The translations under genes and the position numbers were made by a program. A stretch of 64,000 nt of DNA from Gammaproteobacteria bacterium (GTDB lineage: Bacteria > Pseudomonadota > Gammaproteobacteria > Pseudomonadales > Halieaceae): positions 1-64,000 of the forward strand of contig JAUHYL010000010.1 in NCBI GenBank assembly GCA_030426545.1, read 5' to 3'. The notes beneath the pieces were generated by a model. It was not told the origin of the DNA. It saw only the letters and a program-made list of their open reading frames with translations, and searched no databases. Below are positions 35,051 through 45,592 of the stretch, one piece after another. Position 1 is the stretch's first letter. The number at the start of each line of letters is the position of its first letter.

Positions 35051-35132
35051 ATCACCAGCGCCGCTCACATTGACACCGGGGCATATCACGGCTATCCCTT
35101 AAACAGGAGTCAATTGCTGCGCGGTGATGATC

Positions 35133-35921
35133 ATGGAGCGAATCAGAGGGATTGCAATTGGCCTGGTGCTGTCCTGGCTGTGTATGGGCGCACAGGCTGC
35201 CCCCATCACACTGGTGCCGACGGCGAGCGGCGAGTTGGTGGAGAAGCAACAGTGCGCGAGTCCGGGGTGCTTCTCGCTGGACTTTGAATACCGCAACCCC
35301 CTGCAGTCACTGAGTTACAGCTCAACACTGGTCCCGGGCGACGGGCGAGTCAACACCGGCCTGGGATACCTTGTTTTCGACCTGAGCGGCCTCACTGCGA
35401 GCACCGAGAGCGCGCATCTGCGACTTGATCTCAACTATTCCCAGGCAGTCGATCCAGCGCTAACTGTCGCGGCACTGCCGCCGTCCATTGTCGGCGCGTT
35501 GACGGGGATTGCGCCGGGCTCGACCACAGTTTCTTTCTTTGACATGACCCCTGGGGGGATTGCCGCATTCGCGGCGGCAGGGACGCTATACAATGCTATC
35601 GGCACCGGCGCCATGCTCGGTTCCCTGGGTACGTCGGGCCCCTTCAATGGCGTCATTGATATATCCCTGAACAGCGAAGCGCTCAGCCAGATCAACGCGA
35701 CGGGCGGGCTCTGGGGAATCGGCCTGCGCTGGACGCCCACACCTGTTGGAACCATTTTTAATTCAAGCGATTTGATTGAATTCAACTCGGCGCCACAGTT
35801 GCTGCTGACGCAAACGGCAGAAGCGCCGCTTCCCGGCAGTCTGGCCCTGTTCGCACTGGCCGTACTACTGCAACTGCACAGGCTATCAGTACGCCAGCGC
35901 AACGCTGCGACCGCGGCCTGA
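35133..35921 (+). CDS. secreted protein with PEP-CTERM-like C-terminal anchor
   Basis: About 262 residues: an N-terminal signal peptide (IAIGLVLSWLCMGAQA), a beta-rich exported domain with phrases such as LGYLVFDLSGL and SAHLRLDLNYS, and a C-terminal tripartite tail EAPLPGSLALFALAVLLQLH followed by RLSVRQR. The tail (Pro motif, hydrophobic helix, basic end) fits the PEP-CTERM/exosortase sorting pattern, including the common PLPGSLAL variant. The start is uncertain: GTG 35124, ATG 35127 and ATG 35133 are in frame, and the AGGAG at 35105 is rather far. The middle resembles extracellular carbohydrate-binding or DNRLRE-like domains only vaguely. No exosortase gene lies in the window. Function unknown. 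Confidence 0.7.
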   Translation: MERIRGIAIGLVLSWLCMGAQAAPITLVPTASGELVEKQQCASPGCFSLDFEYRNPLQSLSYSSTLVPGDGRVNTGLGYLVFDLSGLTASTESAHLRLDLNYSQAVDPALTVAALPPSIVGALTGIAPGSTTVSFFDMTPGGIAAFAAAGTLYNAIGTGAMLGSLGTSGPFNGVIDISLNSEALSQINATGGLWGIGLRWTPTPVGTIFNSSDLIEFNSAPQLLLTQTAEAPLPGSLALFALAVLLQLHRLSVRQRNAATAA

Positions 35922-36002: not shown

Positions 36003-36455
36003 TCAGCGTCGCGCCCGAAAAAACCCCTGCAGCAGATCAGCGCTTTGCGCTTCCAGCACACCACCGGTCCACTCCACCTTGTGATTAAACCAGTCTTGCT
36101 CCAGCAAGGTCGCATTGCTGGTAATGATGCCGGCTTTCGGCTCGTAAGCGCCAAATACCAGACGTTGGACGCGACTATGCACCAGGGCACCCGCACACAT
36201 CGTGCACGGCTCCAGAGTGACGTAAAGCGTTACACCCGGGAGCCGGTAGTTTTGCGCCGCTCTCGCCGCATCGCGCAGGGCGACCATCTCGGCATGGGCG
36301 CTGGGGTCGCTGTGAGTAATGACCGTATTCCATCCCTCGCCCAGCAGCTCACCGTCCCTGACCACCAACGCGCCGACGGGCACTTCACCCAAGTCACCGG
36401 CCCTCCTGGCCAGCTCCAGCGCACGCTGCATCCACTGCTCGTCCGACGGTATCAC
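36003..36455 (-). CDS. tadA: tRNA adenosine(34) deaminase TadA
   Basis: A 150-residue zinc deaminase that makes inosine at the wobble position of tRNA-Arg. It has the catalytic HAEMVAL and zinc-binding PCTMCAGALVHSR motifs, plus family sequence WMQRALELARRAGDLGEVPVG. It is on the minus strand between unrelated plus-strand genes, so it is probably transcribed alone. Confidence 0.97.
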   Translation of the reverse strand: MIPSDEQWMQRALELARRAGDLGEVPVGALVVRDGELLGEGWNTVITHSDPSAHAEMVALRDAARAAQNYRLPGVTLYVTLEPCTMCAGALVHSRVQRLVFGAYEPKAGIITSNATLLEQDWFNHKVEWTGGVLEAQSADLLQGFFRARR

Positions 36456-36637
36456 GCTAACCCTTTGCTCCTGTTCACGGGCGAGATGAGCAGCACTGGC
36501 AGCCTCCGCCGGAGAAGCTCCCGGCTGGGGAATTTACTTTCCCACGGACGCCCGATAGAGTGACCCGCCGGCAGCATCAGGAGGTACTGACAATTACTAT
36601 CGTTCAACATCATGCCCTGGCTCGTGTCCACAAACGC

Positions 36638-37417
36638 ATGCCCCACCGTCTCCGCATGAGCGCCGGGCCGCGCAATCCGACGATTATACGGCTAGCAGCG
36701 TGCGCTTTCATCGGCTGCCTGCTCAGCGCCTGCACCGGCCTCGAAACCGAAAACACTGCCGGCGATCAAGAAGCGCTCATTTTGCGACTGGACCAGTGTC
36801 TGGAACAGCAGCGTGTCACCCATGAGAAACTGGACGCCCAGCAGGCGATGCAGCAGCATCAGTCAGAACAGGTTACCGAGTTAAAAGGCATGCTCGCCAA
36901 CCTGCCGCGCGGCGCTACCGCCCCGCCCAGTGATCGCAAGCAATGCAAGGCTCGCGCCGGAAAGGAAGACAAACTCATAGTGGGCGCCAAGGAGCGTGTC
37001 TGGCTGCCAAACCTCGGGCTCACCCTGCCCGCCAGGGTCGACACCGGCGCAGAAACGGCCTCACTGGATGCGCGCAACATTACCCCTTTTGAGCGTAACG
37101 GCAAACGGTGGGTGCGCTTCGAGATCCTGCACCCTGATACAAAAGAGCACGTTGAGGTCGAGCGTAAACTTGAACGCACCGTCTCGATTGTCCAGTCTAA
37201 TTCCCCCGAGCCGGAGCGCCGACCCGTCGTCAAGCTCCGCGTCACGCTGGGCCATGTTAATCAGACCGCTGAGTTTACACTGAGCAATCGCAGTCACCTT
37301 GACTACCAGATTCTGGTGGGAAGGAATATCCTGCAGGATGTGATGATCGTCGATGTGAGCAAGCGCAACATTGCTCCCGCCATTGTGCCTGACCCTGAGT
37401 CTTCAGACAGTTCCTGA
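36638..37417 (+). CDS. retropepsin-like 'ATP-dependent zinc protease' family lipoprotein
   Basis: About 259 residues. The N-terminus is a lipoprotein signal (IIRLAACAFIGCLLSAC). A short helical, probably coiled segment follows (QEALILRLDQCLEQQRVTHE), then a domain with the aspartyl-protease-like ARVDTGAETASLDAR, the NLGLTLPARVDTG strand and YQILVGRNILQDVMIVDV. This is the PF05618-type fold, annotated as ATP-dependent zinc protease and related to RimB, but resembling retropepsins with Asp-Thr-Gly. The start could be 36638 or 36656; both keep the signal. Its TGA overlaps the next ATG (TGATG), the first of two such couplings in this trio. The lipid anchor puts it in the periplasm. Substrate unknown. 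Confidence 0.82.
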   Translation: MPHRLRMSAGPRNPTIIRLAACAFIGCLLSACTGLETENTAGDQEALILRLDQCLEQQRVTHEKLDAQQAMQQHQSEQVTELKGMLANLPRGATAPPSDRKQCKARAGKEDKLIVGAKERVWLPNLGLTLPARVDTGAETASLDARNITPFERNGKRWVRFEILHPDTKEHVEVERKLERTVSIVQSNSPEPERRPVVKLRVTLGHVNQTAEFTLSNRSHLDYQILVGRNILQDVMIVDVSKRNIAPAIVPDPESSDSS

Positions 37418-38937
37418 TGGATTACAAACTCAGCTTTCGTATTGTTCTGTTGCTGCTGGCACTCGCCGGCATCTCTATCGCTGTAGCGCGCTCAGTGCAG
37501 ACGGGCATGCCGTTTCTCCCTGGCCTTGAACGTTCTGTCTGGCTGGTTGAGGCGCGCATCGATTTTGATGCGGAAGGTGGCCCGATTACTGCCAGCCTCA
37601 GCCTGCCCGACGCACAGATTCCCGGCTTTGAACTGGTCGAGGAGCAGGCCGCCTCTCCCGGCTACGGTTTCTCCATTATCGAAGAGGACGGCAACCGCCG
37701 CGCAGAATGGACACGGCGCAGCGCTTCCGGTGAACAGGCACTGTACTACAGCGCCCAGTTGGTCGAATCGGGTGCGCAGCAATCCCCGCAGGAACCCGCA
37801 CCGGCGACACGCGACGCTCACCCGATCTACTGGGACGAGGCCGAGAAGCTCGCCGCAAGTGCGGTGCTGCGGCGCGCCCGCCAGACGTCCAGTTCGGCTG
37901 AGAGCTTTACCCGCGAATTGATCAAACTACTGGACGATACCGACGCCGACCAGAATGCCGCTCTGCTGCGGGCCGGGGAAAGCGACCGTGCCCGGTTGCT
38001 GATGAACCTGTTGGAACAGGAAGGCATCATCACACGCTCAGCGATGGGCCTCCGCTTGGAGGATGCGCGGCGGCGGCAGACGCTGACCCCCCTGGTTGAA
38101 ATCTACACCGATGGCGAATGGCGCCTGTTTGACCCCCAGAGCGGCGCCATGGGTTTGCAACCTGATCTGCTGTTGTGGCACCGCGGCGGCGTTTCCGTAC
38201 TCGATGTTACAGGCGGCAGCAGCTCACGACTGAGCTTCTCCATGATCCAGCAAACCGTTACCGCCACGCGCCTGGTGAGCAGCGTCAACAGCGACAGTAT
38301 TTTCAACACGATTGGCATGCACGCACTGCCTATCGAAGAGCAAAGTATGTTCAAACTACTGCTGCTTCTGCCGCTGGGTGCAGCCGTTGTCGTTTTTATG
38401 CGGGTGCTGGTCGGGGTAAAAACCGCCGGCACGTTCATGCCGATATTGATCGCACTGGCCTTTCTGCAGACTTCACTGATTCCCGGCCTGATTAGCTTTG
38501 TGTCGGTCGTCATGATCGGCCTGGTTCTGCGCGGTTACCTGTCGCGACTGAACCTGCTGCTGGTCGCCAGGATTGCGACACTGATCGTACTCGTGATTTT
38601 TCTTATTTCAGCCCTCAGCATTATCGGCTACCAGATGGGCTATAGCACAGGCATGACGATCACCTTCTTCCCCATGATCATTATCGCCTGGACAATTGAG
38701 CGCATGTCCATACTGTGGGAGGAGGAAGGCGCGAAAGAGGTGTTAATCCAGGGCGGCGGCAGCATGCTGGTAGCGGTTCTGGCTTACCTGTTGATGCAGA
38801 CTCCTATACTGAAACACCTCACGTTTAACTTCCCGGAATTGAACCTGGTGCTGCTCGCACTGATCCTGGCCATGGGGAATTACACTGGGTACCGGCTCAC
38901 CGAACTGCGGCGATTCCGCGACATGGTGCAGGGCTGA
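37417..38937 (+). CDS. inactive transglutaminase fused to seven membrane helices
   Basis: A 506-residue membrane protein. One N-terminal helix (FRIVLLLLALAGISIAVA) leads to a periplasmic region of about 270 residues. That region includes a transglutaminase-like section (SSSAESFTRELIKLL through TPLVEIYTDGEWRLFDPQSG) which I cannot align with a Cys-His-Asp triad; the family is described as inactive. About seven membrane helices follow from residue 310 on (FKLLLLLPLGAAVVVFMRVL to LVLLALILAMGNYTGY). This is the PF14400/PF14402 architecture. It shares one base with both neighbours (TGATG junctions). Likely the membrane core of the trio, linking the periplasmic protease to the cytoplasmic ligase. 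Confidence 0.85.
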   Translation: MDYKLSFRIVLLLLALAGISIAVARSVQTGMPFLPGLERSVWLVEARIDFDAEGGPITASLSLPDAQIPGFELVEEQAASPGYGFSIIEEDGNRRAEWTRRSASGEQALYYSAQLVESGAQQSPQEPAPATRDAHPIYWDEAEKLAASAVLRRARQTSSSAESFTRELIKLLDDTDADQNAALLRAGESDRARLLMNLLEQEGIITRSAMGLRLEDARRRQTLTPLVEIYTDGEWRLFDPQSGAMGLQPDLLLWHRGGVSVLDVTGGSSSRLSFSMIQQTVTATRLVSSVNSDSIFNTIGMHALPIEEQSMFKLLLLLPLGAAVVVFMRVLVGVKTAGTFMPILIALAFLQTSLIPGLISFVSVVMIGLVLRGYLSRLNLLLVARIATLIVLVIFLISALSIIGYQMGYSTGMTITFFPMIIIAWTIERMSILWEEEGAKEVLIQGGGSMLVAVLAYLLMQTPILKHLTFNFPELNLVLLALILAMGNYTGYRLTELRRFRDMVQG

Positions 38938-39911
38938 TGTTGTCCCAGTTGCGCACCATACGTCGCATGCACGCGCTGGGTGTCATGGGCATGAATTGCC
39001 GCAATGTCGATTACATCAGCCGCTACAATGAGCGCAAGCTCTACCCCCTCGTTGACGACAAGCTCAAGACCAAACTGCTGGCTGAGGAATACGGCGTTTC
39101 CACACCAACGCTGCGCTTTGTGGTAAGTGAGCAGCACGAGGTGGACAGTACCCAGGCCAAGCTGGAACAACTGGATAACTTTGTTCTCAAGCCGGCGCAG
39201 GGTTCAGGCGGCAAAGGCATACTGGTTGTCAGCGCCCGTGAAGGCAGCGAATTTATCAAGAACTCGGGAGTGCGCATCGAGTTTTCCGATCTGCGTAGGC
39301 ACATGACCAACATCCTCGCGGGCCTCTACTCCCTTGGGGGAACATCCGACCGGGTGATCGTAGAAGACGTCATCGCCTTCGACGAAAGCTTTACCAACTT
39401 CTCCTTTGAGGGCGTGCCCGATATTCGCGTCATTGCGTTTCGCGGCTACCCGGTGATGGCGATGATGCGACTTGCCACGCACGCATCTGACGGCAAAGCC
39501 AATCTTCACCAGGGCGCAGTCGGTGTCGGCCTTGCAATCGACTCCGGCGCCTGTCTGAATGCCGTGCAGTACAATCGACCGATAACAGAGCACCCTGATA
39601 CGGGCTATAACCTCAAGGAGATCAAGGTTCCGAACTGGCGTGAAATCTTGATGCTGGCAGCGCGCTGCCATGATATGACGGGGCTGGGTTATCTGGGCAC
39701 CGATGTGGTGCTGGACAAGAACGCCGGCCCCCAACTCCTGGAGTTAAATGCCAGGCCGGGACTCGCCATACAGATCGCCAACGGCACCGGCCTGCTGCCG
39801 CGACTCAGGCATGTAGAAGGATTACCAGACAGTCGGCGCTGGTCTGCCTCACAGCGGGTAGACTACGTGATGCGTCAGTTCCGCCAGGCGGAGCAAGTGC
39901 CCGCCGAGTGA
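38937..39911 (+). CDS. alpha-L-glutamate ligase-like ATP-grasp protein (RimK-related)
   Basis: A 324-residue cytoplasmic ATP-grasp enzyme of the TIGR02291 type. The ATP-binding parts are NFVLKPAQGSGGKGILVV and VIVEDVIAFDESFTNFSF, with the metal-binding tail PQLLELNARPGLAIQIANG. Members are thought to add glutamate or another amino acid to a carboxyl group through an acyl-phosphate; the true substrate is unknown. It is third in the coupled unit with the retropepsin-like lipoprotein and the 7TM transglutaminase, an arrangement conserved in many proteobacteria. Not the ribosomal-protein S6 ligase itself. Confidence 0.88.
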   Translation: MLSQLRTIRRMHALGVMGMNCRNVDYISRYNERKLYPLVDDKLKTKLLAEEYGVSTPTLRFVVSEQHEVDSTQAKLEQLDNFVLKPAQGSGGKGILVVSAREGSEFIKNSGVRIEFSDLRRHMTNILAGLYSLGGTSDRVIVEDVIAFDESFTNFSFEGVPDIRVIAFRGYPVMAMMRLATHASDGKANLHQGAVGVGLAIDSGACLNAVQYNRPITEHPDTGYNLKEIKVPNWREILMLAARCHDMTGLGYLGTDVVLDKNAGPQLLELNARPGLAIQIANGTGLLPRLRHVEGLPDSRRWSASQRVDYVMRQFRQAEQVPAE

Positions 39912-39963
39912 CGGCGAACAGCCACAGCTTCCCACCAGCACAAGAAATAGAGAGACTTCCACT

Positions 39964-41493
39964 ATGAACCTTCGACCCTATCTCAGCGGCACCCTGCTCC
40001 TGGCCGCAATGCTGCTGGCGCCGTTGCTTCAGGCGGCGCAGAAACCCAATATCCTCGTTATCTGGGGCGATGACATCGGCTACTGGAATATCAGCCGCTA
40101 CAGTCTGGGCATGATGGGATATCCCACCCCGAACATTGATCGCATCGCCAACGAGGGCATGATCTTCACCGACTATTACGGTGAGCAAAGCTGTACTGCA
40201 GGTCGCTCCGCCTTTATCACCGGCCAGCTCCCCGTACGCACCGGCCTGACCAAGGTAGGTATTCCCGGCTCTGAAATCGGAATTCAGGAAGAGGATCCGA
40301 CGCTGGCGGAGCTGCTCAAACCGCTGGGCTACACCAGCGGACAGTTCGGCAAAAACCACCTCGGTGATCGCGACGAGTTTCTGCCGACGAATCACGGCTT
40401 CGATGAATTCTTCGGCAACCTGTATCACCTGAACGCCGAGGAGGCACCTGAAGACCCGGACTATCCGAAAGATCCCGAGTTTCGAAAACGCTTCGGCCCA
40501 CGCGGGGTGATTCACTCCTACGCCGACGGGCGGATCGAAGATAGTGGACCCCTGACGCGCAAACGCATGGAAACGGTGGACGAGGAGTTCCTCGCCGCCG
40601 CAGTCAAGTTCATTGACCAGGCGCACAGCGACGGCAAACCCTTTTTCGTGTGGTTTAACTCTACACGCATGCACTACTACACCCACGTCAAGGCGTCTCG
40701 CCTGGGGGCGTCAGGCCAGGGCTTCTACAACGACGGCATGCTGGAACACGATGACCACGTGGGAATGCTGCTAAATAAGCTGGACGAGCTGGGAATCACT
40801 GACAATACGATCGTGATCTACTCAACAGATAACGGCCCGCACTACAACCAGTGGCCCGACGCGGCAATTACACCTTTTCGCGGCGAGAAAAACACCAACT
40901 GGGAAGGCGGCTTTCGCGTGCCTGCCATGGTTCGCTGGCCCGGCAACATCAAAGCGGGACAGATCAGTAATGAACTGATGTCGCACCTGGACTGGGTGCC
41001 CACGTTGATGGCCGCTGTGGGAGAGCCCGACATCAGCAAACGGCTCAAGTCGGGCGATTCCATTAACGGCAAGAACTACAAGGTTTTCCTTGATGGCTAC
41101 AACTTCCTGCCTTTCCTCACTGGCGAACAGCAGTCAGGACCACGCCAGGAGTTTTTCTATTTCAGCGACGACGGTCTACTGACAGCGGCACGGCTGGGAG
41201 ACTGGAAACTGGTATTTGCAGAACAGCGTGCGCAGCGCTTTGACGTGTGGCGAGATCCGTTCGTCACCCTGCGCATACCGAAGGTCTTCCACCTGCGGCG
41301 CGATCCCTTTGAGCGCGCCGACACAGACTCAAACACGTACAACCGCTGGTGGGACTACAAAATCGCCGGCATCGCCGGGCAGGGTATGGTCAGCGTTACA
41401 CGCCTGGTCGCCACCCTTCACCAGTTTCCACCCAGGCAGCGCCCGGGCACCTTCACCGTCGATCAGATCATGGAAGCTGTCTATAAAAAATAG
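39964..41493 (+). CDS. exported arylsulfatase family protein
   Basis: A 509-residue secreted sulfatase with signal peptide TLLLAAMLLAPLLQAA. Metal ligands are in NILVIWGDDIGYW (Asp36, Asp37). The formylglycine motif is C77-T-A-G-R, which fits C-x-(P/A)-x-R, so Cys77 must be oxidised by a maturase before it works. Other family segments are HGFDEFFGN and YSTDNGPHYNQWPD. Sulfate esters of algal or host polymers and small aryl sulfates are all possible substrates. It starts 52 bases after the ATP-grasp gene and may be read from the same transcript. No sulfatase maturase is in the window. Confidence 0.93.
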   Translation: MNLRPYLSGTLLLAAMLLAPLLQAAQKPNILVIWGDDIGYWNISRYSLGMMGYPTPNIDRIANEGMIFTDYYGEQSCTAGRSAFITGQLPVRTGLTKVGIPGSEIGIQEEDPTLAELLKPLGYTSGQFGKNHLGDRDEFLPTNHGFDEFFGNLYHLNAEEAPEDPDYPKDPEFRKRFGPRGVIHSYADGRIEDSGPLTRKRMETVDEEFLAAAVKFIDQAHSDGKPFFVWFNSTRMHYYTHVKASRLGASGQGFYNDGMLEHDDHVGMLLNKLDELGITDNTIVIYSTDNGPHYNQWPDAAITPFRGEKNTNWEGGFRVPAMVRWPGNIKAGQISNELMSHLDWVPTLMAAVGEPDISKRLKSGDSINGKNYKVFLDGYNFLPFLTGEQQSGPRQEFFYFSDDGLLTAARLGDWKLVFAEQRAQRFDVWRDPFVTLRIPKVFHLRRDPFERADTDSNTYNRWWDYKIAGIAGQGMVSVTRLVATLHQFPPRQRPGTFTVDQIMEAVYKK

Positions 41494-41662
41494 TCGGGCA
41501 TTGCCTTGCCGGGCATAAACCCGCATTGCAAAGGGCCGAGGAGCCAACGACATAAAGCGCGCGGACTGGGCCGCCTCGGCATCGCCAGGAACAGCTGGAA
41601 GCCTTCTGCCGTGATCTCCATCGCAAAAATCACGTGCCCGCGTCATTGTGCGCTACGCAGGT

Positions 41663-41677
41663 GCGCTATCATAGCGC
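41663..41677. promoter_or_regulatory. perfect 15-base palindrome upstream of acyltransferase gene
   Basis: GCGCTAT-C-ATAGCGC lies 26 bases before the likely GTG start of the acyltransferase. It could be an operator for a dimeric regulator or overlap a -10 box (TATCAT). Function not known. Confidence 0.4.
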
Positions 41678-41702
41678 GACCACTTATACAGTCCACACAG
41701 GC

Positions 41703-42866
41703 GTGACGGTGACAACCACCCCCACTATACCGAGTCGGTTTTACTCGCTGGATGCGCTCCGGGGGACCCTGACGTTTTTTATTATCCTGTTTCACTGGCA
41801 ACACTTCTTCTACGACGGTGGTTCGGTTTCCGCAGAGTTCATACCCAGTGCGCAACCGCTGTTCGACTATCTCAAACCCCTGTACACGCAGGGGGTCTAC
41901 GCGGTGGATTTCTTCTTTTCGCTGTCCGGATTTATCTTTTTCTGGCTGTACGGCGAGGCCATTGCCAGCGGCAGAGTCTCTGCGGCCAAGTACACTGCCT
42001 TACGTGTGTCCCGACTCTATCCACTGCACCTCGTTACACTGGCAATGGTGATCGTTGGCCAGTTTGTGGCGGCCGCACAAACCGGCGGCTACGTCGTGTA
42101 CCAGGAAAACGACTGGTACCATCTGTTCCTGAATCTGCTATTTGTGAACGCGTGGGGTTTTGAATCCGGCTTTTCGTTCAACGGACCAAGTTGGACGGTC
42201 TCCATTGAAGTCATGATGTATATCGCGTTCTTTCTTGTCGCCTATTTGAAACTCGCTCGATCACTGATCGTCGCGCTCGCGATCGCCATTGCCGGGTTTC
42301 TGATCGAAAAACACGTCAACCACATGATCGGCATGGGTTTCCATTCGTTCTTTATCGGCGGGGTCGTGTACATCCTGTATACGCGATTGCTGGCTTACAA
42401 TCTCAAAACCGTCTTGCTCGCGTTAACGCCGGTATGTCTGACGATATGGTCGATAGCGGTCATTGATATGTATACCGGCATCGCACCCGATTTCAAGGCA
42501 GTCGCTCCCCAGTACCTGCACGGCGCCATCACCACCATGGATTCCAGCCTGTACGCAACGGTAGTACTGATCCCGTTCACCATACTGTTTCTCGCCATCG
42601 CTGAAACCCTGCGCGGCCGGCTGGCCAGGCGCATGCACGTTCTGGGCGACATGAGCTATGCGCTGTATCTACTGCACTTTCCCTTGCAGCTGACAATGAT
42701 CCTGGTAGCGGACGCACTGGGAATCGATCGCAGTGTTTTCTATTCGGTAGGTGCCCTGCTGCTGTTCTACCTGATCCTGTTCCCCATGTCCTATTGCAGT
42801 TATTACTACTTCGAACTGCCTGCACAGCGCTACCTGCGACGCAAACTGATCCCGCGCAAGGACTGA
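41703..42866 (+). CDS. acyltransferase 3 family membrane protein
   Basis: About 387 residues with roughly ten membrane helices. It has the acyltransferase-3 opening RFYSLDALRGTLTFFIILFH, FFSLSGFIFFW and the Arg-rich LRVSRLYPLHLVTL segment. Such proteins O-acetylate or acylate surface glycans, lipids or small molecules. GTG at 41703 or 41709 is the likely start, since the upstream residues of the open frame are not family-like. It opens the envelope-glycan island running to 49549. Confidence 0.88.
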   Translation: MTVTTTPTIPSRFYSLDALRGTLTFFIILFHWQHFFYDGGSVSAEFIPSAQPLFDYLKPLYTQGVYAVDFFFSLSGFIFFWLYGEAIASGRVSAAKYTALRVSRLYPLHLVTLAMVIVGQFVAAAQTGGYVVYQENDWYHLFLNLLFVNAWGFESGFSFNGPSWTVSIEVMMYIAFFLVAYLKLARSLIVALAIAIAGFLIEKHVNHMIGMGFHSFFIGGVVYILYTRLLAYNLKTVLLALTPVCLTIWSIAVIDMYTGIAPDFKAVAPQYLHGAITTMDSSLYATVVLIPFTILFLAIAETLRGRLARRMHVLGDMSYALYLLHFPLQLTMILVADALGIDRSVFYSVGALLLFYLILFPMSYCSYYYFELPAQRYLRRKLIPRKD

Positions 42867-42896: not shown

Positions 42897-43883
42897 CTAC
42901 TCGCCGTCAGTATTCCCGGAATCGGCAGGGGTAGACACAGCAGGCAGAGAAAACCCCATGGCAAGTGACAACCCGCCAAGCAGTGCCCCGCACAGGCCGG
43001 CGAGGCCGAAAGATATCCCCAGCATCAGCACGTTTTCGCTGGCCGCACCCAGTGGCACCAGGATGGCCAGAAAACCTGCCTCGCGTACACCCCACCCCGC
43101 CAGGGAGACAGGAATCATGGAGACCAGCAGGATAGCCCCGGTGACTGTGGCAGCGAGAACAAAGCCAATTTCAATCTGCAGCGCGAGTGCCAGCAGGTAA
43201 ACGGCAAGACCCGGCAGCACCTGTGCGACAAAGGACGTGGCCATAGCCTGCCAGATTCGCCGCCACGACAGCGGCCTGTCGACGAAGATCATCGCCAGTG
43301 CGTGAATTCGCGCCACACGTTTAAATAACTGTGCCAGCCACGGCCACTGGCTGAGCACAACCAGCAGCAGACAGCCGCCTGTGACCGCAGCGCCCAGCAG
43401 AAAAAGTGATATCACCATGTAGCGCTCTACCGGCAGACCCCACAGTAGCGCACAGGCCAGCACAGTAAACGAAGCGGCACCGATTGCGCCGAACAGGCGG
43501 TCTCGCAGCACACTGACGACTGCATCACCCGTACCCACATTGAAGGCTCGCCAGCGCAACACGCGAACGGCATCGCCACCGATGAAAGAAGGCAGCGCCT
43601 GGTTGAAGAACAAGCCCTCCATGTAGGCTGCAAAGCTCTTCGCAAGGCCCGGCACCGGGTCAATGTTGACCGCCACCAGACGCCAGCGAAAGGTACACAA
43701 CACTGCCTGCAGCACGTTCAGCGCAACGGCTGCCAGGAACGCGGCCACCAGCGAGGGAGCCAACAGCGCGCGCAAGCTTTCCAGGGGAACCTGGCGAAGT
43801 ATCACATAATAGATCGCTACAACAACGGCTATCCTGGCCAGTAGCAGTAGCCACTTTTTGACGGCGTTGTTTCCCTCATCCAT
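42897..43883 (-). CDS. LPG-synthase-type flippase-like membrane protein (UPF0104)
   Basis: About 328 residues with eight or so membrane helices, starting WLLLLARIAVVVAIYYVILR. It contains the family's FMEGLFFNQALPSFIGGDAVR-like segment (here AYMEGLFFNQALPSFIGGDA) and SMIPVSLAGWGVREA. The family (lysylphosphatidylglycerol synthase TM region, AglD-like) is linked to lipid or glycan translocation. The ATG at 43883 is used; a TTG at 43928 in frame would add 15 residues and sit two bases after the upstream gene. It follows the glycosyltransferase fusion, so both probably act on one lipid-linked sugar. Confidence 0.87.
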   Translation of the reverse strand: MDEGNNAVKKWLLLLARIAVVVAIYYVILRQVPLESLRALLAPSLVAAFLAAVALNVLQAVLCTFRWRLVAVNIDPVPGLAKSFAAYMEGLFFNQALPSFIGGDAVRVLRWRAFNVGTGDAVVSVLRDRLFGAIGAASFTVLACALLWGLPVERYMVISLFLLGAAVTGGCLLLVVLSQWPWLAQLFKRVARIHALAMIFVDRPLSWRRIWQAMATSFVAQVLPGLAVYLLALALQIEIGFVLAATVTGAILLVSMIPVSLAGWGVREAGFLAILVPLGAASENVLMLGISFGLAGLCGALLGGLSLAMGFSLPAVSTPADSGNTDGE

Positions 43884-43930
43884 CGACTGGCGGGAAACAC
43901 TCTCTTGATCATCAGGTAGGCGAGGCAACG

Positions 43931-45592
43931 CTATTCAGCTTTCTTGCGCGCGACAAACAGCTTTATGTCACCGAAGGAAATCGGCAGCATGATGCGATCC
44001 GGTATCAACCGGGCGAAAACAGCGAGCGGAGCGCGGAGAAAGGCCGGCAATATGTATAGCCCCTTGGAGTACACGTAATTGGCGCGCGCATAATGCACGT
44101 ACGGGCCGGTATGGACCAGCGTAAACCCGGCGCGATCCAGCAGATCTTCCAGGGTGGCGCGGTCAAAATAGAACAGGTGCATATTGATCAACCAGGGCCA
44201 TCGCGTCTTCAGCAGTTTGGGAAGCCAGGAATCAATATCCATGGTTGACAGGCAGAGCGTTCCACCCGCCGGCAAGTACTCACCACAGGACTCCAAAAAG
44301 GCTTTTGGATCCCTCACATGTTCCAGCACATCCCAGCTCACTACCAGGTCATACTGTGCCTGCAAGTGCTCGCGCTGATCCTCCAGAAAGCCCTGGTGAA
44401 CCGTCACCTCAGATACAGACTTCGCGTATTCCGCCGCCCAGCGTGAAGGTTCAACTCCTTCAGCCTGCCAGTTGCGGCGCCCGGCCTCACGCAGAAATAT
44501 TCCGCAGTAGGAACCCACTTCAAGCAGCTTGCCGGGCTGCGCCGGAATGAATGGACTGATCTGTTCGAAACAGCGGGAATAGGTACGCTCCCGCGCTGGA
44601 ATGTTCTCGATATAGGTGGTGTCGACGACATCCTGGTAGTTTTCCTCAAGCGATGAGGCTACCAGGCTGGCAGGTACCTGTTCGAGATTACAGCCAAGAC
44701 AAACGTAGACGGGCGGATAATCCGAGGAACCCACAGCCGTACATTTAAGCTCGGCGTCCGACACATCGGCTGCCTGCGGTGTTGTCTCAGCGCGCGAACC
44801 GAAGTGTTTCAGCGCAAGCGCGCGATCACTACAACTGGGACAGGCATCCTCCACAAAGAAGTCGGGCTGCAGGTCTGGTGACCGGTTCAGGCGGTGCAAG
44901 CTGAGCAACAGCAAATCGAACGCGCTCTTGAAGATCTGGGCGCGCGGTATCTTGGATGCGCCCCGCGTGCGATCGGAGAAGTGGATGGGCCACTCTTTCA
45001 GCTCAACACCACACTTGTGGAGGTAGTAGACCAGTTCTACGCCATAACTATAGCCTGAAGATTTGATGTGCCGCAGCGGCAGGCGCTTGAGGCTCTCGAC
45101 GTCAAACACGCGGAAATAGGTAGTGAGTTCCTTGAGATCAATCCCCAGGGCCCTGCGCGCGACTACATTGCCCAGACGACTAACCAGGTTGCGGTAGCCG
45201 GTGTAATCACTGGTGCCGCCCTCGCAATAGCGGGATCCCGTTACGAACACGTTCTTGTCGTGCTGGGCCAGCATGTGTGGAATTTGTTCGGGCTCGTGCG
45301 AAAAATCAGCATCCATCGTCACGAGCACGTCGTACTCCTCACGTATGGCGTAAAAGATGGCGTATTTATGCGCACTGCCAATGCCCAGCTTGCGCGGGCG
45401 CCGCACACTGTAGATGTGCTCGTACTGCTGCCGCTTCTCTTCGATAACGTCCCAGGTGCCGTCGGGAGAGTTATCGTCAACCACCAGAATATGCGCCTCG
45501 GGCATAGCGCTGCGCAGGCGGTCGATGAGCAGACCGATGTTTTCACGCTCGTTGTAGCACGTGGTGAAAATCAGTGTTTTTGGATTAGCCAT
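43931..45592 (-). CDS. GT2 glycosyltransferase fused to zinc-ribbon SAM methyltransferase
   Basis: A 553-residue two-enzyme fusion. Residues 1-240 are a dolichol-phosphate-mannose-synthase-like GT2 domain: FTTCYNERENIGLLIDRL, the HILVVDDNSPDGTW loop and the TMDADFSH metal site. A linker with two CxxC pairs (CPSC 251-254, CLGC 298-301) looks like a zinc ribbon. Residues about 340-510 are a class I methyltransferase with SAM motif LLEVGSYCGIFLREAG and VVSWDVLEHVRDPKAFLESC. The C-terminus has a short hydrophobic patch. It probably makes a polyprenyl-phosphate sugar and methylates a related intermediate. Two bases separate it from the upstream limit of the flippase-like frame. Confidence 0.9.
   Translation of the reverse strand: MANPKTLIFTTCYNERENIGLLIDRLRSAMPEAHILVVDDNSPDGTWDVIEEKRQQYEHIYSVRRPRKLGIGSAHKYAIFYAIREEYDVLVTMDADFSHEPEQIPHMLAQHDKNVFVTGSRYCEGGTSDYTGYRNLVSRLGNVVARRALGIDLKELTTYFRVFDVESLKRLPLRHIKSSGYSYGVELVYYLHKCGVELKEWPIHFSDRTRGASKIPRAQIFKSAFDLLLLSLHRLNRSPDLQPDFFVEDACPSCSDRALALKHFGSRAETTPQAADVSDAELKCTAVGSSDYPPVYVCLGCNLEQVPASLVASSLEENYQDVVDTTYIENIPARERTYSRCFEQISPFIPAQPGKLLEVGSYCGIFLREAGRRNWQAEGVEPSRWAAEYAKSVSEVTVHQGFLEDQREHLQAQYDLVVSWDVLEHVRDPKAFLESCGEYLPAGGTLCLSTMDIDSWLPKLLKTRWPWLINMHLFYFDRATLEDLLDRAGFTLVHTGPYVHYARANYVYSKGLYILPAFLRAPLAVFARLIPDRIMLPISFGDIKLFVARKKAE

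Follow-up and report, generated by a model that had tools for sequence, protein, structure and literature searches.

The three adjacent genes at positions 36560-39911 of a 64,000-nucleotide stretch from a Halieaceae gammaproteobacterium (assembly GCA_030426545.1, contig JAUHYL010000010.1; the whole stretch is called here the window) are a variant form of the rloABC operon published in 2025, and they form a real, conserved unit. Lying on one strand in the order PF05618, PF14400/PF14402, PF14397/TIGR02291, they encode a retropepsin-like aspartic protease, a protein that joins an inactive transglutaminase domain to seven membrane helices (7TM), and an ATP-grasp ligase. New here are two forms of RloA, a swap of cutters between RloA and RloB, a predicted cytosolic tail of RloB, a natural RloB-ligase fusion, and a one-retropepsin genome in which no RimB or RimK was found. 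We lean, with modest confidence, towards a reading of the operon in which a glutamate chain, made by RloC at RloB, is moved or presented outward by the latter and trimmed by RloA.

A conserved trio related to rloABC of Pseudomonas aeruginosa

The rloA-like gene (36560-37417, plus strand) has an ambiguous start, either GTG 36560, ATG 36638 or ATG 36656, with a hydrophobic stretch and the lipobox LSAC downstream of each; the start at 36638 preferred in a reading made earlier from the sequence only is in frame and is one of these three. The product matches PF05618 (E 2e-35, residues 140-273), has the active-site motif DTGA in a domain without Cys and finds 9g58, 9g59 and 2pma as its top matches in the Protein Data Bank (PDB). 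Located by pattern and counted on the longest reading, the lipobox occupies residues 55-58, is followed by a long hydrophilic stalk and starts 106 residues ahead of the catalytic Asp. The rloB-like gene (37417-38937, plus strand; PF14400, E 1.9e-51; PF14402, E 1.5e-101) encodes an N-terminal anchor, the inactive transglutaminase domain (approximately residues 38-282, predicted periplasmic) and the seven membrane helices. The rloC-like gene (38937-39911, plus strand) encodes an ATP-grasp alpha-L-glutamate-ligase-like protein (PF14397, E 2.9e-92; TIGR02291, 421.7 bits for a cut-off of 314.2). The sequence-only reading had described three genes joined by one-base overlaps, and both junctions indeed read TGATG: at 37415-37419 the TGA of rloA (37415-37417) shares one base with the ATG of rloB (37417), and at 38935-38939 the TGA of rloB (38935-38937) shares one with the ATG of rloC (38937). 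Pfam and NCBIfam agree with its three family calls, and its opposition of an exported protease to an unexported ligase is borne out by the lipobox of RloA and by RloC, on which no export signal was seen. A scan of 36400-40050 for promoters and terminators gave a site count not above that of shuffled sequence, and ARAGORN found no tRNA in the window.

In P. aeruginosa, the genes were named rloA, rloB and rloC in a 2025 mBio paper (PMC12239564), and the earlier description of the trio as being of unknown function is therefore outdated. According to this paper, P. aeruginosa has three mutually redundant RloA proteases, and a strain without them does not grow on low-salt medium and shows biofilm, antibiotic (ampicillin) and cell-shape defects; deletion of rloB or rloC in the protease-less strain fully rescues the low-salt defect and partly rescues the others. 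RloA is described there as a dimer of retropepsin type, able to cleave poly-glutamate in vitro, so that the earlier statement that no substrate was proven still holds for the natural substrate only. The words ‘lipoprotein', ‘lipobox', ‘export' and ‘fusion' are absent from its main text. A literature search by gene names and families found no other paper on the rloABC operon in the library searched. In Shewanella vesiculosa, more vesicles are reported to be produced when an inactive-transglutaminase/7TM gene is disrupted (PMC12096838). A study of flagellar mutants rich in exopolysaccharide includes PA1766-PA1768 in its list of suppressor insertions (PMC7314104).

The window trio shares with the P. 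aeruginosa operon the order protease, inactive transglutaminase/7TM protein and ATP-grasp ligase, an export signal on the protease, and a DTG retropepsin carrying the symmetric basic poly-glutamate contacts. Its RloA differs by being a stalked lipoprotein devoid of disulfide cysteines, in which R replaces K two residues before the catalytic Asp, and the window assembly contains a single PF05618 gene where P. aeruginosa has three RloA and RimB. The missing disulfide cysteines are the reason why the trio is classed as a variant rather than as the published form. The NCBIfam Rlo models (NF052262-4 and NF052267), which are narrow (equivalog or exception), stay below their cut-offs (98.6 bits versus 210 for the best RloA model, 338.3 versus 900 for RloB).

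Conservation was assessed in 229 genomes drawn from the class (class sample) and in a nearest set made of the window and the best 80 named relatives among the matches listed, which are thus those closest to the window (Haliea, Vibrio, Shewanella, Aeromonas, Marinobacter, Halomonas and other genera). Within the class sample, PF14402 matches are found in 47 of 229 genomes, PF05618 matches in 104 and PF14397 matches in 103 (80 above cut-off). The 38 strong PF14402 matches have a same-strand upstream PF05618 gene in 36 cases and a strong PF14397 match directly downstream in 37, the single one without it lying at a contig end; the grouping is thus no product of chance. The PF05618 family is broader: 97 of its 138 matches lie more than 6 kb from any PF14402 match, and in 60 genomes PF05618 occurs while PF14402 does not. 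The neighbourhood survey proposed by the sequence-only reading thus upholds its statement that the families travel together; its refuting condition, families that occur apart, fails for RloB and the ligase (37/38) and holds in part for the protease family. The full trio was recovered by a position filter in 79 of the 81 loci of the nearest set; of the two incomplete trios, one begins at a contig end and the other regains its ligase under a wider filter. The exact one-base overlap is not conserved (offset -1 in 7/80 loci from A to B and in 16/80 from B to C, taking the nearest start), but the junctions are short, from -4 to +20 bases between A and B in 69/80 and from -20 to +5 between B and C in 79/80. 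The RloC motifs SDGKANLHQGA and ELNARPG show at least 97% conservation over the 80 loci with a protease match, window included, to which all residue counts for the nearest loci refer.

Two forms of RloA and a swap of cutters

RloA exists in two forms, a stalked lipoprotein without disulfide cysteines and the short form already published. Among the nearest loci, the lipobox lies at least 80 residues ahead of the active site in 73 of 80 proteases and the protease domain is Cys-free in 78, the other two loci having one Cys. A class/phylum set of 47 loci shows at least two domain cysteines in 35 and the long lipobox form in 6; some of these loci are too short for the N terminus to be judged, and L010 was left out, its active-site motif being unrecognised. 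Two residues ahead of the catalytic Asp, R is likewise found in 78/80 nearest loci and K in 32/47 of the class/phylum set. One RloA (L007) combines both features, cysteines and a long lipobox. Two disulfide-forming cysteines of the protease domain are stated in PMC12239564 to be conserved in periplasmic orthologs; given a Cys-free domain in 78 of the 80 nearest loci, this disulfide is not general. In a Marinagarivorans locus (L139), where RloB and RloC are found alongside, RloA has VDDEA in place of DTGA or DSGA, and is perhaps a dead or altered protease.

The residues of P. aeruginosa RloA that contact poly-glutamate are the symmetric K46, R92, R114 and R137, together with the asymmetric K95 and K97; D48 is named as well (PMC12239564). 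At the positions of K46, D48, R92, R114 and R137 the window RloA has R, D, R, R and R. Over the 80 loci, Asp is invariant at the D48 position (80/80), and R is found at those of K46, R92, R114 and R137 in 78, 78, 79 and 78 loci, respectively. Conservation of the four symmetric contacts implies that the substrate class should be the same. By the sorting rule for Escherichia coli lipoproteins, the Thr that follows the lipid Cys suggests an outer-membrane location for RloA.

The RimB-RimK system offers a natural comparison, as it also associates a related retropepsin with an ATP-grasp ligase and opposes glutamate ligation by cleavage. Both Rim proteins are cytosolic and have no RloB partner, whereas the window RloA carries a lipobox. 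The window assembly (4.35 Mb, 97.85% complete) contains a single PF05618 match, RloA itself; neither RimB, RimK nor an RloA paralog was found in it, and its sole PF08443 match is a glutathione synthase. RloC retains RimK-like motifs. That the trio might be a relocated Rim system, its target still being S6 of the ribosome or a comparable protein of the cytosol, draws some support from the kinship of RloA and RloC with RimB and RimK, and from one locus (L143) where a rimB-rimK pair lies just upstream of a 7TM-ligase pair; this is nevertheless very improbable, as the lipobox places RloA outside the cytosol, RloC scores 38.9 bits against a cut-off of 143.4 for the RimK family (TIGR00768), and rimB and rloA do not interact genetically (PMC12239564).

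An alignment of RloB over 146 loci (144 distinct RloB ends; one genome apparently entered twice, as L085 and L159) separates the family into types according to the state of the transglutaminase domain. In type i (130 loci, including the window), a catalytic-block Cys is found in 0/130, in agreement with the earlier call of an inactive transglutaminase, and a retropepsin gene lies upstream in 127/130, one of the three exceptions beginning at a contig end. In type ii (10 loci: L043-L047 and L145-L149), Cys (ASC), His (SHQW) and Asp (PFD), which we take from the transglutaminase family to be the catalytic triad, are retained in 10/10 and the ligase is present. None of the ten has a PF05618 neighbour (the search covered the upstream side of the same strand for all ten, and for L043-L047 both strands over 6 kb as well), and two type ii genomes (G071 and G197) have no PF05618 gene anywhere. 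Proteins with TPR repeats occur near all three annotated type ii loci (L043, L044 and L145). One genome (G181) carries a natural fusion of RloB with the ligase, an 853-residue transglutaminase-7TM-ATP-grasp chain (L043:2931-5489). Two further loci (L143 and L144) encode a 7TM protein without a transglutaminase domain followed by a PF14397 ligase, which designates the 7TM protein and the ligase as the core of the system; in L143:1165-5419, a rimB-like gene, rimK, a gene for a 326-residue protein, this reduced RloB core and an RloC-like ligase gene stand in a row. Finally, four orphans (L048-L051, one of them partial) have no neighbouring ligase, and the three full ones lack the catalytic Cys.

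Altogether, one cutter, either inside RloB or beside it, is present in 137 of the 140 type i and type ii loci: an intact RloB domain goes without retropepsin, and a dead domain goes with one. We read this swap as meaning that a working ligase-membrane core would usually require a periplasmic cutter, and that RloA may have replaced the domain of RloB once the latter was dead.

The tail and membrane domain of RloB

The C-terminal motif GYRLTELRRF of the window RloB (residues 491-500, with E496 and R499; 38887-38916, plus strand) lies in a tail that is predicted to be cytosolic. The corresponding pattern G.[RK]..E..[RK]F, relaxed after the tails were inspected from a stricter form that fitted 79/141, is present in 141/141 ligase-partnered loci, in one locus whose contig ends before the ligase, and in 0/4 loci without ligase. 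Six residues, E496, R499, E428, F418, G357 and G487, are conserved in 142/142 loci and lost in all three full orphans; the helix breaks at GTF.P and P419 are retained in the orphans as well. Counts of K+R (2, 3, 2 and 4 in the loops assigned as cytosolic; 0, 0 and 1 in the periplasmic ones) fit a cytosolic tail. Its presence tracks that of the ligase, and the tail is thus a candidate docking site for RloC.

An AlphaFold2 model of RloB (56 sequences, mean predicted local distance difference test score, pLDDT, of 86.6) allows comparison with known structures. Its transglutaminase part resembles the putative cysteine protease 3isr (Z 14.1). With the membrane part modelled alone (52 sequences, pLDDT 78.7), the top ten rows of a VIA comparison (134 chains aligned) are all Rnf or Na+-NQR membrane chains, with Z values of 8.7 to 6.7 and root mean square deviations of 2.9-3.5 over 117-130 residues, plant ALMT anion channels coming next (Z 6.1); Z values below 9 in helical proteins may reflect a common arrangement. 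From their chain letters, we take the Rnf and Na+-NQR subunits to be RnfA/E and NqrD/E. Their likeness to RloB would be one of fold, and they differ from it in function, cofactors and partners. The model at most suggests a transporter-like fold for the membrane domain. A comparison of profiles within RloB gave no significant internal repeat.

The same features could be those of a receptor, in which the dead RloB domain would sense a periplasmic peptide or wall fragment, the tail would switch on RloC, which would modify a cytosolic target, and RloA would set the level of the periplasmic signal. Receptors commonly combine a dead enzyme fold with a membrane domain, the resemblance of the RloB domain to a protease fold agrees with it, and signalling accounts as well as export for the covariation of the tail and E428 with the ligase. 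We nevertheless hold this to be quite unlikely: 7TM proteins without a transglutaminase domain are still paired with a ligase, the type ii domain looks catalytically intact, which would be odd for a pure sensor, and RloA cuts poly-glutamate, the type of product expected from a RimK-like ligase (PMC12239564).

The PgsBC(A) system, which makes and exports poly-gamma-glutamate, has a possibly similar logic, with a cytosolic ligase, a small membrane protein and trimming outside. PgsB is a Mur-type ligase, not an ATP-grasp enzyme. Two proline motifs, chosen by eye, are 79 residues apart in one PgsC and 77 in RloB. Homology of the RloB membrane domain with PgsC/CapC is not supported by the sequences, the relation being not significant: with hhalign, a profile of one single-domain PgsC and a mixed family give a probability below 5% against RloB (best P 0.0086, reversed controls at least 0.14), and doubled CapC alone gives a best P of 0.043 (reversed 0.07). 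PF14102 was found in 0/33 RloB proteins at E ≤10, a range in which HMMER filters remove most matches above 0.1; PgsC is absent from the fold-search matches, and doubled CapC as a query against PDB chains at E 1 gave none. A weak CapC match in one genome (G431) sits in a heme A synthase-like protein and was discarded. The search for additional PgsC sequences covered the order of G358 and another phylum, the latter yielding L163. Proteins of about 1,080-1,090 residues with two CapC domains per chain occur in L053, L054 and L164, adjoined by a CHASE2 protein in L053, and possibly represent an unstudied export system.

A proposed glutamate chain and its cutters

In the reading that we favour, RloC, docked in the cytosol on the C-terminal tail of RloB, would ligate L-glutamate into a short acidic chain; we infer the use of glutamate as well as what the chain is attached to, and it may be free or bound to a carrier. 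RloB, a membrane core with a dead periplasmic transglutaminase-fold domain, would move or present this chain across the inner membrane, export being its presumed role. RloA, a retropepsin held by a lipid and a stalk at a putative outer-membrane address, would trim or remove the chain in the periplasm. In type ii systems, the intact transglutaminase-fold domain of RloB would presumably cut the same product, and no retropepsin would be needed. This reading is preferred as the simplest one to account for the genetics reported in P. aeruginosa, the contacts with poly-glutamate, the swap of cutters, the RloB tail that tracks the ligase and the natural fusion.

Several observations weigh against it. 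A transported chain was not observed here and is not known from PMC12239564. The asymmetric contacts K95 and K97 are replaced by S and V in the window, and the similarity of RloB to PgsC, a component of poly-gamma-glutamate export, falls short of significance. Type ii forms one clade, and so provides one contrast rather than ten; the three full orphans also form one clade, on a long branch, and the swap and the tail may each be a single evolutionary event. As to the tail, besides the relaxation of its pattern, the orphans have lost 13 fixed positions in all, of which only three (E428, E496 and R499) fall in stretches assigned as cytosolic, and the model has low confidence there (pLDDT approximately 51). 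The fold of the membrane domain suffers from the modest Z values, and Foldseek with the 7TM model gave no match below E 0.001. Finally, in L144, one of the two loci without a transglutaminase domain, the ligase is present and no PF05618 gene adjoins it. A PF05618 gene lies close to three of the four orphans, on the other strand, so that the protease can occur without the ligase.

A bolder version, which we consider doubtful, is that RloABC makes a secreted poly-alpha-L-glutamate, combining membrane-docked ATP-grasp synthesis, a new class of transporter (the RloB core) and two interchangeable cutters, one or the other of which would limit the length of the polymer. The core would be RnfA/NqrD-like and perhaps distantly PgsC-like, and the cutter would be either the cysteine-protease domain of RloB or, after death of this domain, an outer-membrane-tethered retropepsin. 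If this were true, the osmoregulated periplasmic glucans would have a peptide counterpart in this acidic polymer of the periplasm.

The P. aeruginosa phenotypes could also be explained by tagging, with RloC glutamylating an envelope building block (a wall precursor, a lipid or a lipoprotein) instead of making a free chain, RloB flipping it and RloA removing the tag, the defects being those of an over-tagged envelope. Other ligases of the superfamily modify carriers, and Pfam names the family of RloC ‘sugar-transfer associated'; the cell-shape, ampicillin and low-osmolarity phenotypes point in the same direction (PMC12239564). On the other hand, plain poly-glutamate constructs are cleaved by RloA in vitro (PMC12239564), and the neighbours of the window trio, including the wall enzyme MltF, are not recurrent in the 80 nearest relatives, which makes tagging unlikely in our view.

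Indeed, none of seven neighbours in the window (PurL, MltF, a 265-residue protein, TadA, a sulfatase, an acyltransferase and a flippase-like protein) recurs in the other 80 nearest loci within the flanks covered. The 265-residue protein (35124-35921, plus strand) has a hydrophobic N terminus and is matched by neither Pfam nor NCBIfam; we take its C-terminal PLPG-hydrophobic-basic tail to resemble a PEP-CTERM type sorting signal. The sulfatase gene (39964-41493, plus strand; motif CTAGR) starts 52 bases past rloC and is followed by that of the acyltransferase (41634-42866, plus strand); since both are absent beside the trio in the 80 other loci, any co-transcription would be local. The flippase-like LPG_synthase_TM protein (42897-43928) adjoins a single open reading frame that fuses a GT2 glycosyltransferase and a methyltransferase (43931-45592, minus strand).

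The trio belongs to a widespread membrane family, the 47 of 229 class-sample genomes with PF14402 being a measure of it, and in P. aeruginosa the operon bears on survival at low osmolarity, on the response to antibiotics, and on biofilm and cell shape (PMC12239564). That type ii loci combine an intact, cysteine-protease-like domain with the lack of a retropepsin provides a reason for the existence of the ‘inactive transglutaminase', and RloA and the type ii domain offer two independent enzymes as routes to the shared substrate. The tail of RloB provides two residues for mutation (E496 and R499), and the window genome offers a single retropepsin.

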